Below are positions 21,979 to 33,174 of a stretch of DNA of 40,282 nucleotides, in pieces. Position 1 is the first letter of the stretch, and each line of letters starts with the position of its first letter. The position numbers were made by a program, and so were the translations under genes. The notes under the pieces are model-generated. The model was not told the DNA's origin and searched no databases. It saw nothing but the letters and a program-made list of their open reading frames with translations. The stretch is from Acidobacteriota bacterium (GTDB lineage Bacteria; Acidobacteriota; Terriglobia; Terriglobales; SCQP01), in assembly GCA_027315185.1 (NCBI GenBank), contig DAHUYO010000027.1, positions 1 to 40,282 of the forward strand, read 5' to 3'.

Positions 21979-22141
21979 GACCGCTGCATTGTACTCCGGC
22001 GGGCCACATGCGCGTGCCCGGATCGCCGCCGCCCGGCGCGCAAACAGCACCGTGCCCTGCGGGCGCGACGGCTGGGCTGGGGTCCGCGCCAATCGTCGTT
22101 GCTTGCGGGGCCGCACATGGCAAGGGACAATGACGAGATGC

Positions 22142-22214
22142 GGGGCCGTAGCTCAACGGTCAGAGCAGCGAACTCATAATTCGTTGGCTGTTGGTTCGAA
22201 TCCAACCGGCCCCA
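22142..22214 (+). tRNA. tRNA with CAT anticodon (Met or Ile2)
   Basis: A complete cloverleaf of 73 bases: acceptor 22142-22148 pairs with 22207-22213, D stem GCTC/GAGC, anticodon stem GCGAA/TTCGT with loop CTCATAA (anticodon CAT at 22175-22177), T stem GTTGG/CCAAC with TTCGAAT loop, discriminator A. CCA is not encoded. CAT can be elongator Met or lysidine-modified Ile; I cannot decide between them by eye. Confidence 0.95.
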
Positions 22215-22319
22215 CAGACCGGCGTGCGCACCGCAGGCCGCTCGCCCCCGGTTGCGGCCATCTGGACATGGGTTGTGCACATGCGGGCGCCCGGCGTGGG
22301 TGGCCGCTGCCGGCGGAGC

Positions 22320-22913
22320 CTATACGCCGGCTTCCGGAATGCTTGCGCCGGCGATGCGGCTGCGCCGCGCTTTGGCCCGCCCGTACCGCACCCGCAGCAT
22401 AATTGCCGCCAGAACGATCAGCAGGCAAATCTCGATGTAGACTTTTCCTCCGTCGAGGTAGTTGACCGGCGCGGCGTTCAGGTGCGGGTTCGCGAGGATG
22501 CCATGCACGAACGCGCAGCCCGCTACGACGTAGGTGGTGAAGTGCAGCGCCTTCCAGGTGCGGCGGCCGATCCGTACGCGGTAATAGGAAGTGACCAGTA
22601 CGAAGGCGAGCATATAGAGCGCGGCCGCGCCGATCAAATTGACCGTCGGTTGCTGTGGCGACCAGGCGGGAAACACCACATCCAAAACGCGAAACTTCAC
22701 CCGCGTGGCCAGCAGGAGCGCGGGGTGCAATACGGAGACGCACAGCGCCGCAAGCCCGGTCTGGTTGTGGATCCAGAAGATGTTGATCTTTCGGTGCGGC
22801 CAATAGCGCACCGGGCTGTAGCGAGCGGAGATGAGCAGGCCCAGCAAGATATTGGCGGTGAGCAGCGTAATCGCCGCCTGCGCGACGTCCGCGGACAGGC
22901 CGATGGCGTTCAT
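22320..22913 (-). CDS. Ferric-reductase-like transmembrane protein
   Basis: From the ATG at 22911-22913 (GGAG four bases upstream) the product has 197 residues and about five or six hydrophobic spans. FWIHNQTGLAALCVSVLHPA and LHFTTYVVAGCAFVHGIL carry paired histidines on two helices, as in the b-type haem-binding ferric-reductase-like domain (PF01794, related to YedZ/MsrQ and NOX cores). No FAD/NAD domain is fused, so electrons must come from another protein. The C-terminus is basic and cytosolic. It lies between the CAT tRNA gene and the first tRNA-Thr remnant, just outside the accessory region. Confidence 0.8.
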   Translation of the reverse strand: MNAIGLSADVAQAAITLLTANILLGLLISARYSPVRYWPHRKINIFWIHNQTGLAALCVSVLHPALLLATRVKFRVLDVVFPAWSPQQPTVNLIGAAALYMLAFVLVTSYYRVRIGRRTWKALHFTTYVVAGCAFVHGILANPHLNAAPVNYLDGGKVYIEICLLIVLAAIMLRVRYGRAKARRSRIAGASIPEAGV

Positions 22914-23161
22914 GGTTCTCCGCCGTCGCGCTGCGCCCAAGCCGGGGAGGTCGGGCTGGATTCCGGCGGATGGTTGCGGTTTACAAACGCTCGCCGGGTG
23001 GCGACTTCCGAATGCGCCACCCGCCATAGGCGGCAGCGACGGCTGGAACGATCGGGTCGTGGGAGGGACGGCTCCGCGGTGCGGCTGAGAGCGCCGCAGT
23101 AGCAACACGTCCGGGTTAGACAACTGCGGTGCGGGCCAGCGTTGGGCAAGGGCTTGCGGAC
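22914..23161. other. Gene-free stretch before the first tRNA-Thr remnant
   Basis: No convincing reading frame, RNA or repeat is visible in these 248 bases. The open frame extending upstream of the ferric-reductase-like gene is Pro/Arg-rich and looks non-coding. Confidence 0.5.
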
Positions 23162-23304
23162 CTGGAGCCGACGGCCAGGGTCGAACCGGCGACCTGTTGA
23201 TTACGAATTGAGCCAACGGTTACGCATCGTCGGCTGCGTAGACCCAATAATAACCCGGGCCTTGCGCCTGTTTCCGCCCGCACGGAGAGGGCCGCCACGG
23301 CCTA
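23162..23304. repeat. R1: tRNA-Thr 3' fragment plus island end sequence
   Basis: The first 46 or so bases copy the 3' part of tRNA-Thr(CGT) (full gene at 31229-31304) with two changes. The remaining about 97 bases match the flank found after the second fragment at 27918-28060. The two 143-base copies align without gaps with about 15 mismatches by eye, nearly all transitions. It marks the outer end of the accessory region. Confidence 0.85.
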
Positions 23305-23497
23305 CGCGGCCGATGCCCGCCGCCACGCCCGCCATGATGCTGATCTCGTTGGCGTTCTGGCAACGCCTCCCTGAACCACGCGATCGGCGGCGGAACAGGC
23401 ACAAGATTCTTGTTACACTTGCAACGGTTGAACCGGGCCCGGAATGCAAGCATCCATGGCCAGGGCGCATACCCGCCCAGAATAGGGAGATTGAATT

Positions 23498-23839
23498 ATG
23501 GAAAACTCACTCTACCCGGAAGCGACGCGTGAAATCGCCAAAAAGCGTGAAGAGCTTGCCCATGAAACCTTAAACGCATGGCGCGGCTTCAGCCGTCAGG
23601 TTTTTGCCGACGGCGCGCTGCCGGCGAAGACCAAGGACCTTATCGCGGTCGCGGTTGCTCATGTCACGCAGTGCCCCTATTGCATCCGTGCTCACACCAA
23701 GAGCGCGCTGGCGAAGGGCGCGACGGAAAACGAGATCATGGAAGCGATCTGGGTCGCCGCTGAAATGCGGGCCGGGGCGGCAGTGGCGCATTCAGCGCTA
23801 GCGATTGACACAATGGCAAAGCACGCCGCCTCGATTTGA
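23498..23839 (+). CDS. AhpD-like carboxymuconolactone decarboxylase family protein
   Basis: This 113-residue protein is a single AhpD-type helical domain with the redox pair C59-P-Y-C62 and H66 in QCPYCIRAHTKSA. Members are either thiol peroxidase partners (AhpD) or carboxymuconolactone decarboxylases; the CxxC with a following His favours alkylhydroperoxidase-type disulfide chemistry. The start is well set by AGGGAGA about seven bases before the ATG. The 193 bases upstream (23305-23497) hold no gene. It is followed after 89 bases by the xylose-isomerase-like gene on the same strand, probably one operon. Confidence 0.9.
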   Translation: MENSLYPEATREIAKKREELAHETLNAWRGFSRQVFADGALPAKTKDLIAVAVAHVTQCPYCIRAHTKSALAKGATENEIMEAIWVAAEMRAGAAVAHSALAIDTMAKHAASI

Positions 23840-23928
23840 GCGCAGATGCCCGTTTCTGACTCGAACGCCTTCGTGCCCGAGTCCACAAATCTGCCGAAAC
23901 AGCGCGATCACATTTGCAGGAGGGCGAG

Positions 23929-25173
23929 ATGGCGGCAACAACCCGCGGCGAACAACAGGCATTGGTGGAACGGCTGATGTCCGCCTGCGGAGGCAGTTAT
24001 TCTCCGGAGGTTCGGCGTAAATTTTTCATCACCGGACCTCAATGGGCAGCCGCTTACCAGGGACAGGCGCTCTTTCACGCGCCCACACGCCAGCCTGTCA
24101 CACCGGCCGAAGTGATCCGCCACTTTGCGCGGATCGGGATCGGGTGGTGGACCACTCACGACTTGGACATCCTTTCTCCCGAAGAAATGATGACGCCAAG
24201 GCAAGACGAAATTCTTGGCGGCATTGAAACGTCGCTGAAGCAGCATGGCGTCCAGTGTTCCATGGTCACGTGCGAGACATTCTTCAGCCCGGTATGGGCG
24301 GCAAGCCCAGCCGGAGAGCAGCCGGAAGTTCGTGCCCACGCCGCGCTGCGGTTGGAGAATCTGGTTGCGATCGGCCATCGGCTCGGAGCCCGGTTCGCCG
24401 TTTATTGGCCCGGAACGCTGGGATACCAGATTCAGGGAAGCGTGGATGAAACGGTGATGTTGAAGCGCTATGCCGACCTGATCAACGCTGCGTGCGCCAA
24501 AGACATCGCCCTCTCCCGCGCCAATCACGGCGCGACCCTGCGCCATTGCCTTGAGGCAAAACCCTTCGAGCCCCAGGCCGAGCTGGTTCTACCGACAACG
24601 GATGCGATGCTCGGCTTCATCCACTCAGGATTGTTGCAACATCCCGAAATGGTGGGCGTGAACACCGAATACCTACATGAGCTGATGTGGGGCGGAGCTC
24701 CGCGAGCTGCCCTCGCGCGGGCCCTGGTAGCAGGGAAGCTGTGGCACTTCGATATCAACGATGGTTACAGGCTCAAACACGACGTGGACATCGGCGTGGG
24801 CCTGGTCAATCCGCTGGATTGGCTTAATGTCCTGATTCTGCTGCGCGCGCACGGCTATAACGGGCCTTTCAATCTCGATTACAAGCCGCCTCGCACCACC
24901 AGCAACCACGGGGTTTTCCAGGTCAGCCTTCCGACCGCGGTCGATCGCTTCATCACGCTGTGGGAGATGGCCGGCGAGGCGATCGCCGATCCCATCATCC
25001 GCGAGGCGACGCGCGCCCTCGAGGCCGGCGCAGGCATAGCGAATGTCAACGATGGCGATGCGGTGTTCGAGGCGAACAAGGAGATTTGGACCCTTCACGA
25101 ACTCATAGGGCATCGGCTCTTTCAGATTCTTTTGGGTCAACACCGCGGCAGGCTGTTTGTGGATATGAACTGA
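23929..25173 (+). CDS. Xylose-isomerase-like TIM-barrel sugar isomerase
   Basis: From the ATG at 23929 (AGGAGGG at 23918-23924) the protein has 414 residues. It follows class I xylose isomerase along its length, and the catalytic and metal residues can be matched: H77 and D80 (THDLD; His54/Asp57 in Streptomyces XylA), E209 and K211 (EAKPFEP), E247 and H250 (VNTEYLHELM), D275 (HFDIN), D285 and D287 (KHDVDIG) and D317 (NLDYKPPRT). The WGGREG block of true XylA is instead YWPGTLGYQ, so the sugar pocket differs. It should be a divalent-metal aldose-ketose isomerase of uncertain sugar. No xylulokinase or transporter is nearby; its neighbours are AhpD-like genes inside the tRNA-Thr island. Confidence 0.82.
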   Translation: MAATTRGEQQALVERLMSACGGSYSPEVRRKFFITGPQWAAAYQGQALFHAPTRQPVTPAEVIRHFARIGIGWWTTHDLDILSPEEMMTPRQDEILGGIETSLKQHGVQCSMVTCETFFSPVWAASPAGEQPEVRAHAALRLENLVAIGHRLGARFAVYWPGTLGYQIQGSVDETVMLKRYADLINAACAKDIALSRANHGATLRHCLEAKPFEPQAELVLPTTDAMLGFIHSGLLQHPEMVGVNTEYLHELMWGGAPRAALARALVAGKLWHFDINDGYRLKHDVDIGVGLVNPLDWLNVLILLRAHGYNGPFNLDYKPPRTTSNHGVFQVSLPTAVDRFITLWEMAGEAIADPIIREATRALEAGAGIANVNDGDAVFEANKEIWTLHELIGHRLFQILLGQHRGRLFVDMN

Positions 25174-25583
25174 CGGCTTGCGGAACAGGAACACGTCGGG
25201 CGCCGCGACGGGGAACCTGAGTGCCCCCGGGCGCAAAGGACGAATCGTGGCGCGCTGATCCAAACCGCGAAGCGTGGCGCGTACGGCGAGCGGTTCCGGC
25301 TTGCCTTAACCATTGAGGGACCTGTCCCCGGTGCAATTTCGGCGGATAGCCTTCACGTCTCATCCGCAAAATACTGAATGCGGTGAGCCAGAACAGGGGC
25401 CACATGATCGCTCGAAGGCCTAAGAGCAGGTGCTGGCCTTATAGAGCTTGGCGCAGCGGCCGTTCCCGCCTCGCTTACTGACGTCGTGGCCGTCGCTTGG
25501 CGTTATCGGGTTTTCCGAGGCATCGCTGGCTACAGCGGTTCGATGGCGTCGCGGCTTGAACCGCTGGGCGGACGGCGGCGCCG
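25174..25583. other. 410-base gap without a supported gene
   Basis: Open frames here are Arg/Pro-rich shadows lacking ribosome-binding sites. I see no RNA, transposase remnant or clear repeat. The flanking genes converge into the gap, so it may hold terminators that I cannot pick out. Confidence 0.5.
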
Positions 25584-26105
25584 CTATCTCTGAACGTCGC
25601 TTCCTGGCCGGCCCCTTTTCGGAATGTTGCTGGCGCCGTCCCCGGTTCTTCTCTGAGCGGGATCGTAGGTCCCGGGTACAGTCCGGAAGCCGATTGCCAG
25701 GCGGTTCCACCCATTGATGGCAATAATGGCGAGAGTGAGGTCCACCAATTCCTTCTCGCTGAAATGCCGGCGGGCTTGCTCGTACACGGGGTCCGGGGCA
25801 TGTCCTTCGCCGATCTTGGTGATCGCCTCGGTCCAGGCGAGCGCTGCACGTTCGCGGTCGCTAAAGAACGGTGTCTCTTCCCATGCGACCAGCGCGTAAA
25901 GCCGCTGTTCCCGTTCTCCTTCCGCACGGGCGTCTTTCGTGTGCATATCGACGCAATAGGCGCACCCGTTGATTTGCGAGGCTCTGAGCTTCACCAATTC
26001 CAGGAGAGGGCCTTCCAGGCCGCAGTGCCGGACGTAGCTTTCCAATCCCAGCATCGCCTTCAGTCCCTCCGGCGCAGCTTCGGCGTATTGAATTCGCGGT
26101 TTCAT
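25584..26105 (-). CDS. AhpD-like carboxymuconolactone decarboxylase family protein
   Basis: The ATG at 26103-26105 has GGGAGG about eight bases upstream. The 173-residue product starts MKPRIQYAEAAPEGLKAMLG and carries the redox motif C48-A-Y-C51 with H55 in NGCAYCVDMHTKDAR, then ERAALAWTEAIT and LTLAIIAINGWNRLAIGF, all typical of the longer AhpD/YurZ-like proteins in this family. It probably uses the Cys pair in peroxide or disulfide chemistry. The last 25 residues (after about 148) are Gly/Arg-rich and extend past the usual end of the family. It is on the opposite strand from the first AhpD-like gene and only moderately similar to it, so not a recent duplicate. Confidence 0.9.
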   Translation of the reverse strand: MKPRIQYAEAAPEGLKAMLGLESYVRHCGLEGPLLELVKLRASQINGCAYCVDMHTKDARAEGEREQRLYALVAWEETPFFSDRERAALAWTEAITKIGEGHAPDPVYEQARRHFSEKELVDLTLAIIAINGWNRLAIGFRTVPGTYDPAQRRTGDGASNIPKRGRPGSDVQR

Positions 26106-26335
26106 TGGCAATCCTCCCTGTCGTATCCGATGGACGCGTTTTTCGTTCACAAGCAATGGCGCCACCCCCGGCCACATCTCTCTGGCCGGCTCCGGCTGGG
26201 ACAGGAGCCGTGAGTGCGCGTCGAGCGGTGATCTCGCGAGGCGCGGCGCCGACAACGATAGCCCGCCCCCGTCCAGGAAGCGCGTCCGGTCGCGGAGCGG
26301 CTCGGCGGCTCGGCGGTCGCCGGTCAACGGTCCGC

Positions 26336-26815
26336 TCAACGCAGCGATTGCGCCTTGCCCAGGCTGCGTATGTAAGCGACGAGCTGCCAAATCTGCGCGT
26401 CGGAGTTGATGTGCGCGAAGCCGGGCATTCCGGACAAACGGATTCCATTCTTGACCACCGCAAAGATTTCGCGGTCCGAGAGCTTCTGAACCGCGGCCGA
26501 ACCCAGGTCGGCGGGACGCGGGTACATCGAGCGCCCAATCGGCGACGGTTTGCGCCCAGTGTGCCCGTGGCAGCTGGCGCATTCCATGCCGAAGAGGCCG
26601 CCGCCGGCCGTGACGTCTCCGGGCGCGCGCGGCGGCGGCGGTGGAACCTTGTTGGCCTCGCGGGCAAGATACCAATTCCTGGCCGTCGTGGCGAAGGCGC
26701 TCTCGACCTTACCCGGCACAGGCAATGCACTGATCCCGTAGCCAAACATTAGGTAAGCCGTGATAGCCATGATCACGGCAACGATGAGAATGACAATCCG
26801 CCAGCCCCAGGTCAT
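26336..26815 (-). CDS. Membrane-anchored c-type cytochrome
   Basis: From the ATG at 26813-26815 the 159-residue product has an N-terminal hydrophobic helix (residues 6-28) that anchors or exports it, a Pro-rich linker (58-65) and one cytochrome c domain. The haem motif is C79-A-S-C82-H83, and M130 in SGMPGF is the likely sixth ligand. It would carry electrons in the periplasm. An in-frame ATG at 26857 would add 14 residues. The ribosome-binding site is poor for either. The gap of 230 bases to the AhpD-like gene downstream holds nothing recognisable. Confidence 0.85.
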   Translation of the reverse strand: MTWGWRIVILIVAVIMAITAYLMFGYGISALPVPGKVESAFATTARNWYLAREANKVPPPPPRAPGDVTAGGGLFGMECASCHGHTGRKPSPIGRSMYPRPADLGSAAVQKLSDREIFAVVKNGIRLSGMPGFAHINSDAQIWQLVAYIRSLGKAQSLR

Positions 26816-27072
26816 AGCGTTGACTGACGCCGGCTCCAGCGCGGCTGGGTGGTGCATGCAGCCGCGCTTGGCGCTGCGCTGCGCGTGCCTCCTGCTCGCG
26901 CCGGCTGAAGACGCGCGCCGCATTGCGTCTACAGCGCCTGCCGGTGTTTTTCACCTTGCGGACCGGATCCGCAAGGGGTCACGACGCGGGCGCCGCGGCC
27001 TTTCGCGCCGACACCGCCCGCGCTGGAACCAGCGCGGCGCAAGCAGGCGGGGCGGTCCCGCCCTCAGCAGCG

Positions 27073-27432
27073 CTAGCGAACCCGCGCGATTCGCTCCACG
27101 TGAATGGTCTTGGTGGCGGCGTCGTAGGTGCCGGTAATGCGCACATTTTCACCGGCGAAAGCGCGCGGTTTCTTTTGATTGTCAAGCTTGTAGATCGTTT
27201 TGTGCGCGGAGTTGTACAGCACGAATTTGCTGCCAGCCTTGACGCAGGCCAAGGTGCAGGCTCGCGGAGTGTGGGTGCCGGTCATTTTGTAGCCGGCGGC
27301 GTGGCTGCCGGTGGCGGCGCAGGCGCTGTCCATGATTTGGCCGGTAAAGGCGCGTGCGCGTGTGTGAGTCTGCGCCAGCGCCAGGCCCGCGGAGATTACG
27401 ATCAAAAAGATAAACGACAATGCTTTTCTCAT
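27073..27432 (-). CDS. Small secreted protein, DUF5818-like
   Basis: The 119-residue protein has a clear signal peptide (MRKALSFIFLIVISAGLALA). The mature part FTGQIMDSACA, then ACTLACVKAGSKFVLY, YKLDNQKKPRAFAGENV and GTYDAATKTIHV forms a small beta fold with three cysteines. I recall this pattern as DUF5818, common in Acidobacteriota; function is unknown. AGGAGAG lies five bases before the ATG at 27430-27432, a strong site. It stands alone at the end of the outer island. Confidence 0.82.
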   Translation of the reverse strand: MRKALSFIFLIVISAGLALAQTHTRARAFTGQIMDSACAATGSHAAGYKMTGTHTPRACTLACVKAGSKFVLYNSAHKTIYKLDNQKKPRAFAGENVRITGTYDAATKTIHVERIARVR

Positions 27433-27908
27433 CTGTTCTCTCCTTTCTATTCAGCACCGGTCGCGCCCTCCGGAATTGCCAGCTGCATGAGGACGGCGAG
27501 CGGCTAAACATCAGAATATCACGATTAGATATATTCGGCAGGGCGTGTGCGTACTTACCCGCCCCACGCCAGGCGCCGCTGACACCGCCGCTCCGCCGAA
27601 AAGCGAAAGCGGCGGCTGGGTGGCTTCAGATTTCCGGACAGGGGGCACAACCCGGCGATGGTCCCAATGTGATTGGGCACGAAAAATAGGAGGTGATCAA
27701 TCGCCCTCGCATTGACCAGCGCGGCGACGCCCGCGGATTGCTCGAACGAGTTGAGGCCGGGACGTTCCCGGATCTTTGGTGCTGTGGGGCGACCCCAATC
27801 CGACCACCTTGGTAGCCGCAAAGCGATTTGAGGAAAAGGCCCCGCCAATATGAGCGCCACAACCACGGCGCAATTGGCGCCGTTTGCGGCGGGGCGTTTG
27901 GCAAGCCG
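27433..27908. other. Gap with a possible decayed reading frame
   Basis: No intact gene is visible. On the plus strand 27690-27775 reads like protein (RPRIDQRGDARGLLERVEAG) and, after a one-base shift, 27778-27853 continues as LVLWGDPNPTTLVAAKRFEE and ends in TGA. This may be the tail of a broken gene. AGGAGGTGAT at 27689-27698 matches the anti-Shine-Dalgarno exactly but has no convincing start codon after it. Confidence 0.3.
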
Positions 27909-28128
27909 TTGAAAACGCTGGAGCCGACGGCCGGGGTCGAACCGGCGACCTGCTGATTACGAATTGAGCCAACGGCTACGCATCGCCGAATGCGTAAGCC
28001 TAATAATAACCTGGGCCTTGCGCCCATTTCCGCCCGCACGGAAGGAGCCGCCACGGCCTAAACGTGGCGTTGGTCTTGTTGGGTTTTGGGGAGGACGGGG
28101 GAACGCGAACGCCACAAACACGCCACAA
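27909..28128. repeat. R2: 56-bp tRNA-Thr att copy plus island end sequence
   Basis: Bases 27909-27964 are identical to 31219-31274, which covers the 3' part of tRNA-Thr, its CCA and ten bases beyond. This is the direct repeat expected for an att site. The end sequence from 27965 contains the dyads TTCCG/CGGAA (28028-28043) and CGCCACG/CGTGGCG (28049-28069). Bases 27918-28060 match R1 and about 28018-28128 match R3. Nothing else is seen before the HepT gene at 28174. Confidence 0.9.
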
Positions 28129-28173
28129 TCCGCTGCGACAGGCGAGGGCGCGGCGGGTCGGCGGAGCGGTCGC

Positions 28174-28518
28174 TCAGCCCAAGTCCGCAAGCCACTGCTC
28201 GATTTCGGCGCACAGCCTCGGCAGATCGCCTTGAATGACGCCCCAAACCACCTCGTGGGACACGGCGCTGTATCCGTGGATGAGCCGGTCGCGAAACCCG
28301 ATGATTTCGCGGCAATTGGTGATGCGGCTCCTGGTTTCAGGAAACCGAGCAGATGCCTGCCGCAGCGCCTCGCCAACGATCTCGAACTGCCGCTCCACTG
28401 CCGAGCGCAGCAATGGGTCGCCGCGATATTCTTCAAGCGTTGTGCCCTGCGTAAAAGCAATGAGAAGGCGGACGGCCTCGGCCGCATCCCAAACATAGGC
28501 GCGAAGGTCACGCGGCAT
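28174..28518 (-). CDS. hepT: HepT-like ribonuclease toxin (HEPN, DUF86)
   Basis: The 114-residue protein is a HEPN-domain toxin. Its active motif RDRLIHGY gives R76-x4-H81-G-Y83, the RX4HXY motif in which Arg and His cut RNA and the Tyr is the site of AMPylation by the partner antitoxin in studied MntA-HepT pairs. The ATG at 28516-28518 is two bases after the TGA of the MntA gene, so the two are co-translated. The segment AVERQFEIVGEALRQAS is also standard for DUF86. It is a stability or defence module inside the inner island. Confidence 0.93.
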   Translation of the reverse strand: MPRDLRAYVWDAAEAVRLLIAFTQGTTLEEYRGDPLLRSAVERQFEIVGEALRQASARFPETRSRITNCREIIGFRDRLIHGYSAVSHEVVWGVIQGDLPRLCAEIEQWLADLG

Positions 28519-28520
28519 GG

Positions 28521-28829
28521 TCAGGCTGCAAAGATGGGTTGCTGCGTTGCCAGGATTTCGCGGCGGATATAGGGATTGCGGATCGCCGACGCCTCAGCCA
28601 GGTCCACCCGTGCGCCGAGCAGTTCTTCCAGCGCCGCCGCCAACCCAAAATAAGCATGGGCATGTTCGGTGGCGGGCATCGGCTCGAACTCGACCAACAA
28701 GTCCACGTCGCTCCGGCCCGGCTGAGACTCCGCGCCCAGCGCCGAGCCGAATACCGCTAGCCTCCGTACGCGATAGCGGCGGCAAAGGGCGGCAAGTTCG
28801 CCTAGTTTCCCGTCAAGCGCGGCGTTCAT
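28521..28829 (-). CDS. mntA: MntA-like minimal nucleotidyltransferase antitoxin
   Basis: From the ATG at 28827-28829 (GGGGGA upstream) the 102-residue product is a minimal nucleotidyltransferase. The active-site signature is G28-S29 in FGSALG and D41-x-D43 in SDVDLLVEF, with the third acid D76 in RVDLAEA. MntA proteins neutralise HepT by adding AMP to its motif Tyr. All three acids are present, so it should be active. It is immediately upstream of hepT, the normal order for this pair. Confidence 0.93.
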   Translation of the reverse strand: MNAALDGKLGELAALCRRYRVRRLAVFGSALGAESQPGRSDVDLLVEFEPMPATEHAHAYFGLAAALEELLGARVDLAEASAIRNPYIRREILATQQPIFAA

Positions 28830-29340
28830 CGCGTTTCCCCCACTGCCTATGATAGGCGAACCGGCCGCGCCCCGCCCACCGCCGCTGCGCGGGCGACGCG
28901 AAGCACGCACCGCCCGCGGGTATTACCGGCCTACGCCCCGGTCCTTTGGGCCTGGCGGGTGCCAGCGGGCTAGGCCGCCGCGAACGGGTCGGGCGTAACC
29001 GGCGTTAATTTGAGACGCAGGGGCTGCCCATCGCCGCGAACGTTGAATTGAGCCTGTCTAACGGTTTGCTGGCGGAGTAGCCAAAACAAAAGCCGGCGCG
29101 TTGCGCCCATTTCCGCACGCACGGAAGGAACCGCCACGGCCTAAACGTGGCGTTGGTTTTGTTGGGCTTTGGGGAGCACGGGGGACGGCGAACGTCACAG
29201 ACACGTCACGGCCCTACAAGAAGCCTCCCTTGAAATGGGAAGGTTGGGCCTCTGGCGGAGCAGGCGGTCGCCCCTATTGGCGCCGCCAATCGGGCCGGGT
29301 GCGCTAAACTCTATCGTTGTCGCCAATCGAAAGCGGCCAA
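28830..29340. other. 511-base gap holding the third end-sequence copy and a gene-tail fragment
   Basis: No intact gene. R3 lies at 29101-29211. Next to it on the minus strand, 28972-29046 reads FNVRGDGQPLRLKLTPVTPD and ends in TAG, which looks like the C-terminal tail of a gene cut off by R3; the family is not recognised. ATTGGC-GCC-GCCAAT, a dyad at 29276-29290, lies just before the next gene. Confidence 0.45.
29101..29211. repeat. R3: island end sequence without the tRNA part
   Basis: This matches R2 at about 28018-28128 with roughly ten mismatches and keeps both dyads (TTCCG/CGGAA with six-base spacer, CGCCACG/CGTGGCG). Similarity fades between 29050 and 29100, then the short junction GAATTGAGCC (29045-29054) is shared with R1 and R2. 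Beyond it, where R1 and R2 have the tRNA-Thr fragment, R3 has unrelated sequence. Confidence 0.75.
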
Positions 29341-29871
29341 ATGCGCCTCCAGTTGACACTAGACCCCGGTGCGGGCAGCGACAAAGATTTGGTCAGGGCC
29401 CTCGCTGGGGCGCTCCCCGCGGAAGAGGGGCTGGATGTCTCTACCCGTTCTTTGCTCTCGGAGTCCGGCATAGGGGCACTGGCCTTCCTTGGCGTCACCG
29501 CGTGGATCGGCAAACGCGTGCTCGGGCCCACCCTAGACCAACCGGGGCAGTGGCTTCGCGACCTGCTGCTGGCCTACGTCGAGAGGCGGGGTGTCGGGCC
29601 CGTAGTGACCGTAACCTTGCAGCCGGGAAACGTAAGGATCGGCGTGCCAGTAGAGCACCTCGAAAGTTTGCATTTCCGCCTGGGCGGTGTGGCGGGTCTT
29701 CTGATGGAAATGGGGAGTCTTCCGTGTATCAGCGACGCAGACAGGGTCGTCATCTCCGCGAAGCCTGCCGGCGGTTGGACTGCGGAAATCTGGCCCGCCG
29801 ACATGGCGGCAACGGCAAGATATTGGCTTTACGACTCGGAATCCAGGTCTTGCGAGCCGAGATGGATGTGA
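29341..29871 (+). CDS. Unrecognised protein, possibly EACC1-like
   Basis: The 176-residue product starts at the ATG at 29341; an upstream TTG at 29317 is also in frame. It begins with a beta strand and DPGAG (RLQLTLDPGAG), a short helical segment and a hydrophobic stretch (about 43-62, IGALAFLGVTAWIGKRVLGP), then strand-rich sequence (VVTVTLQPGNVRIGV). The strand-DPG-helix-hydrophobic-strand order recalls the effector-associated constant component EACC1 described for bacterial conflict systems, but that match is from memory and weak. The C-terminal half (about 105-176) is not recognised. It converges on the next gene across 32 bases. Its place in an island with HepT/MntA and Res remnants fits a defence role, unproven. 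Confidence 0.6.
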   Translation: MRLQLTLDPGAGSDKDLVRALAGALPAEEGLDVSTRSLLSESGIGALAFLGVTAWIGKRVLGPTLDQPGQWLRDLLLAYVERRGVGPVVTVTLQPGNVRIGVPVEHLESLHFRLGGVAGLLMEMGSLPCISDADRVVISAKPAGGWTAEIWPADMAATARYWLYDSESRSCEPRWM

Positions 29872-29903
29872 TCTCCCCCAGCCCGGATTTTATCCCGTGG
29901 GCC

Positions 29904-30659
29904 TCAAGACTGACCGCTGGGCGCAAGGGCGTCCAATAGCTCGCCCGTGATGATCCATTTAGCGGCGGGATGAGCGGAAAACGTCACGGATAACCTGAAC
30001 GGCGTACTCCAGCCGGTACGTCCGTCCGCGCCGCGATGCTGGAGGCGCACGAACACCGGCCGCGAGCTAATCAGCACCAGCATTTGCCAGTCCATTCCCG
30101 TGGGGTCCAGCCCGAAAAGGTTTAGCAGCTCATTCTGGATGTCCACCCGCACGGACTCCTCGGCCCTAATAACCGCGTCGCGGAGGTGCGTGGGCGCGGC
30201 AAAAGGCGGTGGCATTACGGAAATCTCGAATCCGACCAAGCGAACGGCGTGCCGGCCGTAATTCCAAACTTCGAGGGTCGCCCGCTCGAACTGGATGCTT
30301 CTCACGTCCGTCAAACTGTGGCGGATTTGGGCGGTGCCGGCGATCCCGCCACGCGGCCATAGGTCGAGATGAACTCCCTGCTCCTCTGCCCACCGCGCCT
30401 GAAGTACGGCGAGCTGCTCCCGGGCGGCTTCCGCCTGCTCGGCCAGGCTCCTGCCCTGTTTTTCAAGCGACCTGCCCTGCTCCTTGCTCGCCTGAAGCGC
30501 TTTCCAGGCGGCAAACGCCAGGACCGTTGCTGCAATGAAGCTAAGCGAGGCGGCGGCAGCCTCGGTCTGCCGCGGCCAGCGGGTTGAGAGGGCCGTCGCG
30601 GCCAAAAACACCCCGACTGCGGACGCCGCAGCGACGGTGGCGCGCCCGCCCGCCGTCAT
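29904..30659 (-). CDS. Unrecognised membrane protein with coiled coil
   Basis: From the ATG at 30657-30659 the 251-residue product has two hydrophobic helices (about 6-24 and 37-55), then a charged coiled coil (about 58-95) with the repeated element EQGRSLEKQGRSLAEQ, and a beta-rich soluble domain to the end. Both termini would be on the same side, probably cytoplasmic. The start overlaps the TGA of the Res fragment (ATGA), so it was once coupled to a restriction gene. I do not recognise the soluble domain. The layout (two helices, coil, globular domain) resembles many membrane effectors of defence systems, but that is only an analogy. Confidence 0.65.
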   Translation of the reverse strand: MTAGGRATVAAASAVGVFLAATALSTRWPRQTEAAAASLSFIAATVLAFAAWKALQASKEQGRSLEKQGRSLAEQAEAAREQLAVLQARWAEEQGVHLDLWPRGGIAGTAQIRHSLTDVRSIQFERATLEVWNYGRHAVRLVGFEISVMPPPFAAPTHLRDAVIRAEESVRVDIQNELLNLFGLDPTGMDWQMLVLISSRPVFVRLQHRGADGRTGWSTPFRLSVTFSAHPAAKWIITGELLDALAPSGQS

Positions 30660-31015
30660 GGGACCAGCCCGCGAGCGCCGGGCAGGGCGGCCAGGTCGGC
30701 AAGACAGGAGGGGCGCAGGGCCTCGAAATCTTTTTGCGGGATTTTGGCGTAGCGCCAGGGCGTGCCGGTCAAAGCCGTCGCGTTCTCGCACCACTGCTCG
30801 GCGGCGGCGTCCTTGCGGGGCACGTCCGCCGTTTCCTGACCCTTGGTTTCGAGCAGCCGATGGCCGCCGCTCCCGTCCACCGCGACGAAATCCGGGTAAT
30901 AGGACCGCAGGTTCATGGCGGAGTTATTTTACCCGATGCAGAAGCCGAACGATTCCGGCAGCTCGGCGAACGCCTCTACGTCAGTGGCCGTTTCGCTGTC
31001 CAGAAATTGCGGGCC
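30656..31015 (-). pseudogene. C-terminal remnant of a type III restriction (Res) subunit
   Basis: On the minus strand FLDSETATDVEAFAELPESF then, after an in-frame TAA at 30929-30931, MNLRSYYPDFVAVDGSG, LLETKGQE, WCENATALTGTPWRYAKIPQ and KDFEALRP read as the end of a type III Res or DEAD/DEAH helicase-nuclease. YPDF with LLETKG is the nuclease-like core of that tail. Both halves are in the same frame, so the TAA is a nonsense change, probably at a Tyr codon. Everything before about 31015 (helicase domain) is missing. An 86-residue product from the ATG at 30914-30916 could still be made but would lack the helicase. Confidence 0.8.
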
Positions 31016-31228
31016 CGTTCGGGGCAGGTCGAATAGACGGCCCGGCCATGTGAGCTGGGAGGGCCGCACGGGAACAGGGGCCCCGAGGCCCCATTTTCCG
31101 GTCTCCGCGCGCGGTGACGGCCGCTGGGCAAGGCGGCTCGCCTGCCCAGGATAGCGGCGGGGAATGGGAACACGGGACGGGCGGCACACCCGGTCCCGGC
31201 GCGACCGACAGAAACTAATTGAAAACGC
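31016..31228. other. Gap between the Res remnant and tRNA-Thr
   Basis: An integrase gene would normally sit here, next to the tRNA 3' end. The 213 bases show no recognisable integrase or other gene. Bases 31219-31228 belong to the 56-bp direct repeat. Confidence 0.5.
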
Positions 31229-31304
31229 TGGAGCCGACGGCCGGGGTCGAACCGGCGACCTGCTGATTACGAATCAGCCGCTCTACCAACTGAGCTACGT
31301 CGGC
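31229..31304 (-). tRNA. tRNA-Thr (CGT)
   Basis: A full cloverleaf on the minus strand: acceptor GCCGACG/CGTCGGC, D stem GCTC/GAGC, anticodon stem GCTGA/TCAGC with loop TTCGTAA (anticodon CGT), T stem GCCGG/CCGGC with TTCGACC loop, discriminator T and encoded CCA (31229-31231). It is the integration target of the two islands to its left; its 3' part recurs at 27909-27964 and 23162. Confidence 0.96.
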
Positions 31305-31451
31305 CTTGGATTTTCACAGATTAGCACGGCGATTGCGGCGTTTCCGCCGGGGAGCGAGCCGGGGTGGGCGGAGCCGCGGGCGCCGAGAGGATAACGAGCG
31401 GCGACGCTGGCCCCGGGGCCTCCGGGCGGCGAAATGTCCAGCGGAATTTCA

Positions 31452-31479
31452 GTTGTATTCAATGTAACAGGGGTACACT
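31452..31479 (+). promoter_or_regulatory. Possible promoter and operator of the VWFA-related gene
   Basis: A dyad GTTGTATTCAATGTAAC (31452-31468; arms GTTnnATT and AATnnAAC) precedes a -10-like TACACT (31474-31479). The ATG follows nine bases later, so the mRNA would be almost leaderless. No good -35 is seen. Confidence 0.35.
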
Positions 31480-31488
31480 GGGCGCGTT

Positions 31489-33174
31489 ATGCGAGTAGCG
31501 GGCCGCATTGCGATGTTAGCGATGCTGGCTCCAGGGCTGGCGCTGGCGCAGGCGCCACCGCGCAGGATACCCTCGTTCCGGACCGCCGTGCGGCGGGTGC
31601 TGGTGCCCGTCACCGTGCTCAACGGCAAGGGTCAGGTGGTCCGCGGGCTGCGCCGGAAAGATTTCGAGTTATTGGTGGATGGGCAAAGGGTGCGGATCCG
31701 CAGCGTGGATTGGATCCATGCCGCGCGCAGCGCGGCGGGGGCGCGGGTCAACGGCCATGCTCCCGGCGTGTTCACCAACCGGCCGCATCGGACGCCGCCG
31801 AGTTGGGTGGTGCTGCTGATTGACTTCCAGAACACGCCGCTGGAGGACATGATGTGGATGCGCGCCGGCGTGCTGCGCTTCCTGCGCAGCGATCTGCGGC
31901 CGGGGCAACCGATGGCGATTTTCGGCGTGTCCGACGGCTTGCTGATGTTGCAGCCATTCACGTACAACCGGCGACGATTGCTGATGGCGGCGGGACAATG
32001 GATCCGGCCGCGGCTGGATTATAATCTCGCCTTTTCGCCGCCCCGCATTTCGGCCGTGGGCGCCAGCCCCTCCGGGGTGCCACGCCGGCAAAATACGGAG
32101 TGGGGAGACATCCATGCCATGGACCGAGGGGCTGGCATCTCAACCACCGATGGCGTGTTGCGGCAACTGGCGGCAACCTTATCGCCGCTACCCGGGCGCA
32201 AGGTGGTAATTTGGGCCGGGGATGGGGCTCCGTTGGCTTGGAACCCGGCATGGAGTTCGTCGTCGCCGAGCGAACTTCTTCAGGCGCTGCCGGAGGCCAA
32301 CGAGGATAGATGGCGCGAGAACGCCGGCACCTATCAACTGCTGAACGAGGCCGACGTTGAACTCTTCCCGCTGGACCCGCGCGGCGTCTGGCTGGCCATG
32401 CCCGCCGCCTACCGCGCGGGCCTTCCCGGGCGGCGCCAGTCCGTGATGCTCAATACCCCCGGATTGGGCTCCGCGCGCGGCGGGCAAGGAAAGAACCCGG
32501 TCCGTTCCGGCGGGCAGATGCTGAGCTGGAGCGCGATGCAGGACGCCGCGCACAAGACCGGCGGGAAGGCGCTGATCGGAGACAATTTTTTGTGGCAGTC
32601 GCTGGGACAGGCACAGCGGGAATGGTCCAACTATTACCTGCTCAGCTTCCAGCCGCCGCGCGATCCGCGCGGCGAGGTGCGCTACCACCACATCCGCGTG
32701 GCGGTGGACCGGCCCGGGTTGTCGGTGCAGGCTCGGCAGGGCTATATCACCCGGGCGCCGCAGGTGCTGCGCGTGGAGCATCCCCGGCCGGGTTTCGAAA
32801 TGGGCGCAGCCAGCATGGCGGATGTCAGCGGCATTCCGTTGCAGGTTCATTTGGGGGGATGGTGGGTGCAAGGCAAGCAGCGCTTCCGCGCCTACCGGTT
32901 CAGTGTGCCGCTGGGCGGCGCCGGCTGCCGGCACGGGTCGCCCTGCCAACTGATCGCCGGCGTGGTGGTTTCCGGCCCGCGCGGCCGGGTTGTCGGCCAG
33001 CGCGGTTATTTAGTGAAGCTACGGCGCGGCTTGCGGTCCTCCGGACGCATTGGGCTGCGCGGGCGGATCACGGTCCGGCGCCGGCCTGTCTACCTGGTGC
33101 GGTTCATGGTCCGGGCCGTACCTAGCGGCCGCTTCGGGGAAGTGGTCATTGCCGTCCATCCCCCGAAGCGCTAA
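31489..33174 (+). CDS. Secreted VWFA-related domain protein (acidobacterial type)
   Basis: The 561-residue protein has a signal peptide (about 1-21, RIAMLAMLAPGLALAQ). The segment RRVLVPVTVLNGKGQVVRGL-RKDFELLVDG is the usual start of acidobacterial VWFA-related proteins (TIGR03436 group). It is followed by a VWFA-like fold: VVLLIDFQNTP replaces the canonical DxSxS with DFQNT, GRKVVIWAGDGAP is the central strand, and YYLLSFQPP closes the domain near residue 390. A Gly/Arg-rich beta region of about 150 residues ends the protein. It probably binds proteins or the envelope outside the membrane; function unknown. No ribosome-binding site precedes the ATG at 31489. It is the first gene right of tRNA-Thr and is divergent from it. 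Confidence 0.85.
   Translation: MRVAGRIAMLAMLAPGLALAQAPPRRIPSFRTAVRRVLVPVTVLNGKGQVVRGLRRKDFELLVDGQRVRIRSVDWIHAARSAAGARVNGHAPGVFTNRPHRTPPSWVVLLIDFQNTPLEDMMWMRAGVLRFLRSDLRPGQPMAIFGVSDGLLMLQPFTYNRRRLLMAAGQWIRPRLDYNLAFSPPRISAVGASPSGVPRRQNTEWGDIHAMDRGAGISTTDGVLRQLAATLSPLPGRKVVIWAGDGAPLAWNPAWSSSSPSELLQALPEANEDRWRENAGTYQLLNEADVELFPLDPRGVWLAMPAAYRAGLPGRRQSVMLNTPGLGSARGGQGKNPVRSGGQMLSWSAMQDAAHKTGGKALIGDNFLWQSLGQAQREWSNYYLLSFQPPRDPRGEVRYHHIRVAVDRPGLSVQARQGYITRAPQVLRVEHPRPGFEMGAASMADVSGIPLQVHLGGWWVQGKQRFRAYRFSVPLGGAGCRHGSPCQLIAGVVVSGPRGRVVGQRGYLVKLRRGLRSSGRIGLRGRITVRRRPVYLVRFMVRAVPSGRFGEVVIAVHPPKR

Follow-up and report, generated by a model that had tools for sequence, protein, structure and literature searches.

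Probable tandem accretion of decayed, integrase-less islands at a tRNA-Thr(CGT) gene of an acidobacterium

How does one tRNA gene come to be accompanied by two further copies of its own 3' half? We addressed this question in a window of 40,282 nucleotides (positions 1 to 40,282 of contig DAHUYO010000027.1, assembly GCA_027315185.1) from an Acidobacteriota bacterium of the order Terriglobales, in which a tRNA-Thr(CGT) gene lies to the right of two such fragments. The site very probably reflects tandem accretion, in which a tyrosine integrase inserted islands at the anticodon loop at least twice, the islands having since decayed and lost the integrase. A preliminary description, made from the sequence alone, had proposed two successive integrations at the 3' end of this gene, and the features on which it relied were all recovered. 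Thus, the intact gene at 31229-31304 was found by both ARAGORN and Rfam, the perfect 56-bp direct repeat (31219-31274 and 27909-27964) was identical at 56 of 56 bases (E 6.9e-23), and the diverged copy at 23162 aligned with the gene (31228-31274 against 23162-23208) at 95.7% identity over 47 bp (E 2.7e-15). When matched against a tRNA library, the tRNA part of both fragments corresponded to nucleotides 31-76, and the break therefore lies at the anticodon loop in both. Furthermore, a search of the draft assembly (3.77 Mb, 263 contigs, 86% complete) with the tRNA region gave six matches, namely the gene, the two fragments and three intact tRNA genes on other contigs (Thr-GGT, Phe and Val), and tRNA fragments were thus found only at tRNA-Thr. 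The GC content differs weakly, with about 60-67% across 23-31 kb versus 66-72% in the left flank.

We then compared the site with two genomes of the same genus, G001 and G002, which have the same tRNA-Thr gene and the same right-hand neighbour gene, and whose right flank is about 94% identical in DNA to that of the window. In both of them, the sequence matching the left-hand repeat (27909-27964) runs directly into the counterpart of 31275, and thereby presents a natural empty site. Because of this direct join in both congeners, 27965-31274 is an insertion in the lineage of the window, hereafter the inner island. The outer fragment, with its adjoining arm and gene block, is present in all three genus genomes examined, whereas the inner island occurs only in the window, and the outer event is therefore the older one, as had been guessed from its divergence. 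Compared with the intact tRNA of the same genome over 46 bp, the outer fragment shows 91% identity in G001 and 89% in G002. Thus, the check suggested at the outset, to look for relatives with an empty tRNA-Thr site, succeeded for the inner event but yielded no such site for the outer one. The two observations named as fatal to the idea did not turn up either, since the outer fragment is there in both of the relatives that share the gene order, and fragments in the assembly are confined to tRNA-Thr. Chance similarity or an assembly artefact, which the fragmentation and incompleteness of the draft might suggest, is extremely improbable, and was rejected on the statistics of the 56-bp repeat and on the two other assemblies, in which the outer fragment recurs and the inner site is cleanly empty.

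Inspection of the sequence beyond the fragments revealed a conserved block of about 100 bp, here called the P arm, which the preliminary description had overlooked. The non-tRNA sequence to the right of both fragments is shared (23139-23304 versus 27894-28060, 86% over 167 bp), and 28002-28126 recurs at 29085-29209 with 87% identity. Alignment with similar stretches of the genomes G008, G009 and G041 showed that the block ends in paired repeats, GYCACA-N4-CGYCACR, a motif that occurs twice in the window versus 0.02 expected, and that is missing from the truncated outer arm. A sequence-only model built from six copies matched 22 places in 20 of the 397 genomes of the window's order, the six training copies included, while a looser DNA pattern found nine places in seven of these genomes. 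In a class-wide sample, 4 of 399 genomes had matches, all of them from the window's order. The exact pattern was present in public genome contigs only in the genomes of G008 and G009 (the Acidobacteria metagenome-assembled genomes YP1.bin64 and YP3.bin101), and gave no match in public viral contigs.

We next examined 21 places, comprising 20 of the 22 model places (the matches in G366, at a contig end, and in G161, in simple sequence, were left out) and the truncated outer arm of the window. As a result, a tRNA 3' fragment was found 52-65 bases before the arm at 17 of them, whereas none appeared in 420 shuffled sequences or, for the 21 places, on the opposite side of the arm. According to a small library of 24 tRNA genes from the fetched loci, the fragments derive from Thr-CGT (eight, two of them in the window), Met (five), Lys-CTT (three partial matches, one degenerate) and Glu-CTC (one). 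The inner island has the arm with its repeats beside a tRNA fragment; the outer arm has the fragment without the repeats, and a third arm, inside the inner island, has the repeats without the fragment. The features of the site are collected in Table 1. Arm-like matches near tRNA-Ser in G037 and G048 were not counted, as there is no model match there; in both (L073:10676 and L074:10101), a stretch resembling the central part of the P arm is found at a distance of 63 bp from the tRNA-Ser(GGA) 3' end, with no adjoining paired repeat.

Table 1. Features of the tRNA-Thr(CGT) site, in window coordinates, with the evidence for each
Feature	Position	Strand	Evidence
Intact tRNA-Thr(CGT), integration target	31229..31304	-	ARAGORN; Rfam places the gene at 31232-31304
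Inner attachment repeat: tRNA 3' half and 10 flanking bases	31219..31274	-	56/56 identical to 27909-27964
Displaced tRNA-Thr 3' half, left end of inner island	27909..27964	-	Repeat match; contiguous with 31275 in both congeners
Outer displaced tRNA-Thr 3' half	23162..23208	-	95.7% over 47 bp
Inner island, 3310 bp counting one repeat copy	27965..31274		Absent from both congeners
P arm of inner island, ending in paired repeats 28111-28127	27965..28127	+	Model match 28022-28130; repeat motif
HepT-like protein, predicted toxin half of HepT/MNT pair	28174..28518	-	PF01934, E 1.9e-19
MNT-type nucleotidyltransferase, predicted antitoxin half	28521..28910	-	PF01909, E 2.4e-10; PADLOC PDC-S09, E 3.6e-30
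Third P arm; paired repeats 29194-29210	29045..29210	+	Model match 29105-29212; motif; repeat comparison
Open frame, 184 aa, no family	29317..29871	+	Frame list, domain and PADLOC scans
Open frame, 296 aa, no family above cut-off	29904..30794	-	Frame list, domain and PADLOC scans
Interrupted remnant, C-terminal part of type III restriction enzyme	30662..31060	-	Frame with a stop; 53.5% identity to G008 protein (residues 99-238)
Outer block, common to G001 and (without about 25351-27719) G002	23209..27908		Congener comparison
Truncated P arm of outer block, without paired repeats	23209..23304	+	Repeat comparison; motif scan
Carboxymuconolactone decarboxylase (CMD) family protein	23498..23839	+	PF02627, E 3.7e-23
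Xylose-isomerase-like TIM-barrel protein	23914..25173	+	PF01261, E 4.1e-10; 96% identical in G001 and G002
Frame holding second CMD-family domain, residues 202-284	25584..26675	-	PF02627, E 7e-20
Cytochrome c	26336..26923	-	PF13442, E 1e-12
DUF5818 protein	27073..27432	-	PF19135, E 2.5e-7

Several observations weigh against tandem accretion, first of all in the outer block. Its arm has no end repeats, and its genes are metabolic, not defence genes. No empty outer site was found in the ferric-reductase and TIM-barrel neighbourhoods within the family (11 stretches), which have no other window gene in common and no tRNA gene, and the tRNA-Thr(CGT) neighbourhoods from other genera share none of the window's flanking genes. 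Counterparts of the TIM-barrel gene, 66-77% identical, lie in G004, G005, G007 and G009 at unlinked places, again without other window genes or a tRNA gene. All of this would suit an explanation in which only the inner island truly inserted, while a local duplication or rearrangement produced the outer fragment and arm, leaving ordinary chromosomal genes enclosed. We nevertheless consider this improbable, since the outer fragment breaks at the same base of the anticodon loop, and is followed by the arm in the same order, as at the other fragment-plus-arm places. The proposal of two integrations is thus supported by the congener empty site for the inner event, and by the fragment together with the same arm for the outer one. 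The block itself is shorter in G002, which lacks the equivalent of window 25351-27719 (at L048:3980), 2.4 kb with the second CMD domain, cytochrome c and most of the DUF5818 side.

To the same side of the balance belong the four arms without a tRNA fragment (the third arm of the window, the second arm of G008, and those of G080 and G227) and the missing integrase. Nine integrases, one of them only a C-terminus, gave no credible match in 22001-31500, the best (E 9e-5) falling in the low-complexity tail of one query outside the integrase domain and the next having E 0.002, and no integrase was recognised among the scanned window frames. Paired repeats were not found to the left of the intact tRNA in the window, and 31081-31219 aligned with three integrase 3' ends no better than shuffles did; the idea of an integrase remnant in the window was rejected on these results. 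Within the draft assembly, whose 86% completeness makes absence no proof, no integrase of the G041 clade was detected at E<=1e-20. The genome of the window has seven PF00589 matches; apart from the window's own, no arm repeat lies on any of their contigs.

The integrase in the accretion model is instead deduced from relatives that share the P arm. In G041, tRNA-Glu(CTC) is adjoined by a tyrosine integrase (L077:15464-16612) whose 3' end holds the paired repeats, and at a distance of 16.5 kb there is a tRNA-Glu fragment together with the P arm. A second tRNA-Glu fragment of 24 bp (L076:18927-18950), outside the island, is another sign of stacking. In G009, one contig has tRNA-Met adjoined by the end of a related integrase with the repeats, and a second contig carries the N-terminus of Cas9, the P arm and a tRNA-Met fragment; the two pieces are probably both ends of one island. 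Furthermore, G191 has at tRNA-Met (L199:9584-19713) an integrase that shares 56% identity with the G041 enzyme and carries the repeats at its 3' end. The same contig holds Cas9 (1085 aa), Cas1, a CRISPR array (20 aligned repeat copies, with a few masked bases) and the P arm, as well as two tRNA-Met fragments, of which the shorter lies beyond the other, making this island a candidate mobile CRISPR-Cas9 element. G016 has a 57% identical integrase with repeats at tRNA-Met, the match holding two in-frame stops, and its P arm is on another contig. The closest parallel to the window is G232, where a deleted integrase stands against tRNA-Thr(CGT), with the fragment and P arm 9.4 kb away. At most other arm places, the contig stops short of the far side, where the integrase would lie. 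By analogy with these relatives, in which the integrase gene lies against the intact tRNA with matching repeats in or beside its 3' end, a similar enzyme probably acted at the tRNA-Thr of the window.

At the window's site, the tRNA-arm arrangement and the inner empty site were observed directly, and they would be accounted for as follows. A tyrosine integrase would insert an island at the anticodon loop of the tRNA gene, swapping its 3' half for the island's own copy and pushing the old half outward to a place beside the island's P arm; the integrase would then have been lost, and further integration would have followed at the restored tRNA. As neither an integrase nor repeats beside the tRNA were found in the window, its islands are predicted to have lost their mobility, barring the action of an integrase from outside.

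We thus considered whether such integrase-less islands are not dead, but moved in trans by an integrase encoded elsewhere or supplied by another element. In favour of this, G008 has at tRNA-Met a 2.5-kb island that is still flanked on either side by paired repeats but contains no integrase, and several arms recur in one genome, both in G008 and in that of the window. However, we judge this quite improbable, because the window is without paired repeats beside its tRNA, the search for a G041-clade integrase was as negative in G008, also a draft, as in the window's genome, and none of the seven PF00589 matches is linked to an additional arm. Moreover, the P' side of G008 has the look of an integrase gene deleted down to its end: beside the tRNA, 75 bp align with the end of the G009 integrase gene, and then comes the C-terminal part of a type III restriction gene, a relative of which stands in an 860-aa open frame in G047. 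G008 can thus show what the decay of an island leaves. If moved in trans, G008 would have to resemble the hitcher genetic elements, which, as outlined in PMC11389934, have no mobility enzyme of their own; no helper was identified for the islands here.

The preliminary count of two events may need revision, as the inner and outer events stand but the third P arm suggests three rather than two. This arm keeps 10 bases of the core edge (29045-29054, shared with 27960-27969) and no tRNA fragment, and it is likely the mark of a third element. The sequence to the left of this core edge is unlike tRNA. Alternatively, the inner island entered as one composite that already had two P arms, in which case two, not three, integrations occurred at tRNA-Thr. 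The lack of a tRNA fragment at the third arm and the absence of all 3310 bp at once from both congeners would agree with such a composite, but the core edge GAATTGAGCC is kept at the expected distance, as in a former attachment site. We therefore regard a composite entry as a serious possibility, if somewhat short of an even chance.

As judged from domain and PADLOC matches, the HepT/MNT pair and the restriction remnant of the inner island are predicted defence cargo. The true start of MNT may be internal to its frame. The remnant was also matched by PADLOC REase_III (E 1.4e-6 at 30656-30916), and the restriction gene piece has the same orientation relative to the adjoining tRNA in the window and in G008. 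Through this common piece, the inner island is connected with one that lies at a different tRNA gene. In kind, the predicted cargo of the window resembles the CRISPR-Cas9 and restriction genes of some relatives. A far-reaching picture, which we find unlikely, would have one integrase lineage keep the P arm of about 100 bp, swap its tRNA target (Thr-CGT, Met, Lys-CTT, Glu-CTC) and ferry defence genes (Cas9-Cas1-CRISPR, restriction, HepT/MNT) through the order, while integrase-less, arm-bounded derivatives would ride in trans as hitchers and stack at tRNA genes as defence archives. In G187 (L190:4056-7218), two proteins adjoin the P arm: one matches PADLOC PDC-M21B (E 5.1e-72), and the other, of 812 aa, matches PrimPol (E 4.4e-94).

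Tandems of decayed islands that lack an integrase are a known kind of arrangement. A published model describes tandems of cis-mobilizable elements (CIMEs) formed by accretion (PMC5704250), and the window fits the model as outlined there, in which an island integrates, its integrase is lost and the restored tRNA then receives another island. A CIME keeps its attachment sites on both sides after losing the integration genes; at this site, tRNA halves stand on both sides and a P arm is present, but no paired repeats were found on the tRNA side. However, the CIMEs of that account are relatives of integrative and conjugative or integrative and mobilizable elements, whereas no conjugation gene was recognised in the window, no transfer gene was found among its scanned frames, and the inner island is without repeats on one side. 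The Islander catalogue of tRNA-gene genomic islands (PMC4383910) gives anticodon-centred sites in 2083 of 3919 cases, and 125 tandems of two or more and 4 of three or more. The window is alike in its anticodon-centred site, its tandem arrangement and its ends marked by an intact tRNA and a displaced 3' fragment in the same orientation, and the inner island is absent from the same site in both congeners; but Islander, as described there, requires a tyrosine integrase gene within each island, and the islands of the window, having none, would be rejected. As for G191, an integrative and conjugative element of Campylobacter likewise carries CRISPR-Cas9 (PMC8743540), but that element is conjugative and from another phylum, while the G191 island spans about 10 kb and is known by its integrase, Cas9, Cas1 and array.

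By title or abstract start, we found no description of the P-arm family, and no paper on this acidobacterial island family, in the literature on integrase-less or trans-mobilised islands, acidobacterial defence islands, anticodon-loop integration, accretion and Cas9 on integrative elements, a search with most subscription journals outside its scope. The locus offers island scars without an integrase, together with their relative dating and a natural empty site, and the P arm serves as a diagnostic sequence for related islands that would escape finders based on integrases, among them one with Cas9, Cas1 and a CRISPR array. The locus also allows tests of whether islands can still move when they retain the two arms without an integrase, and of how a single integrase lineage switches between tRNA targets.

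Finally, other integrases were observed at tRNA genes in the genus and beyond. In the window's genome, integrase genes stand beside tRNA-Glu(TTC), tRNA-Leu(TAG), tRNA-Val(GAC) and tRNA-Asn(GTT) on other contigs (loci L129, L130, L131 and L132), and likely mark further islands. A tyrosine integrase lies 5' of tRNA-Met in G001 (L047:9844-11215) and G002 (L048:1-757, partial), a place occupied at the tRNA-Met of the window (22142-22215) by an alpha-L-fucosidase frame. In G007, another integrase (L052:4452-5821), 53% identical to the one beside tRNA-Asn in the window's genome, adjoins tRNA-Thr(CGT), and a tRNA-Thr fragment, at which no P arm was found, lies on another contig (L053:9575-9624). The tRNA-Thr(CGT) gene seems to serve a second integrase group as well.

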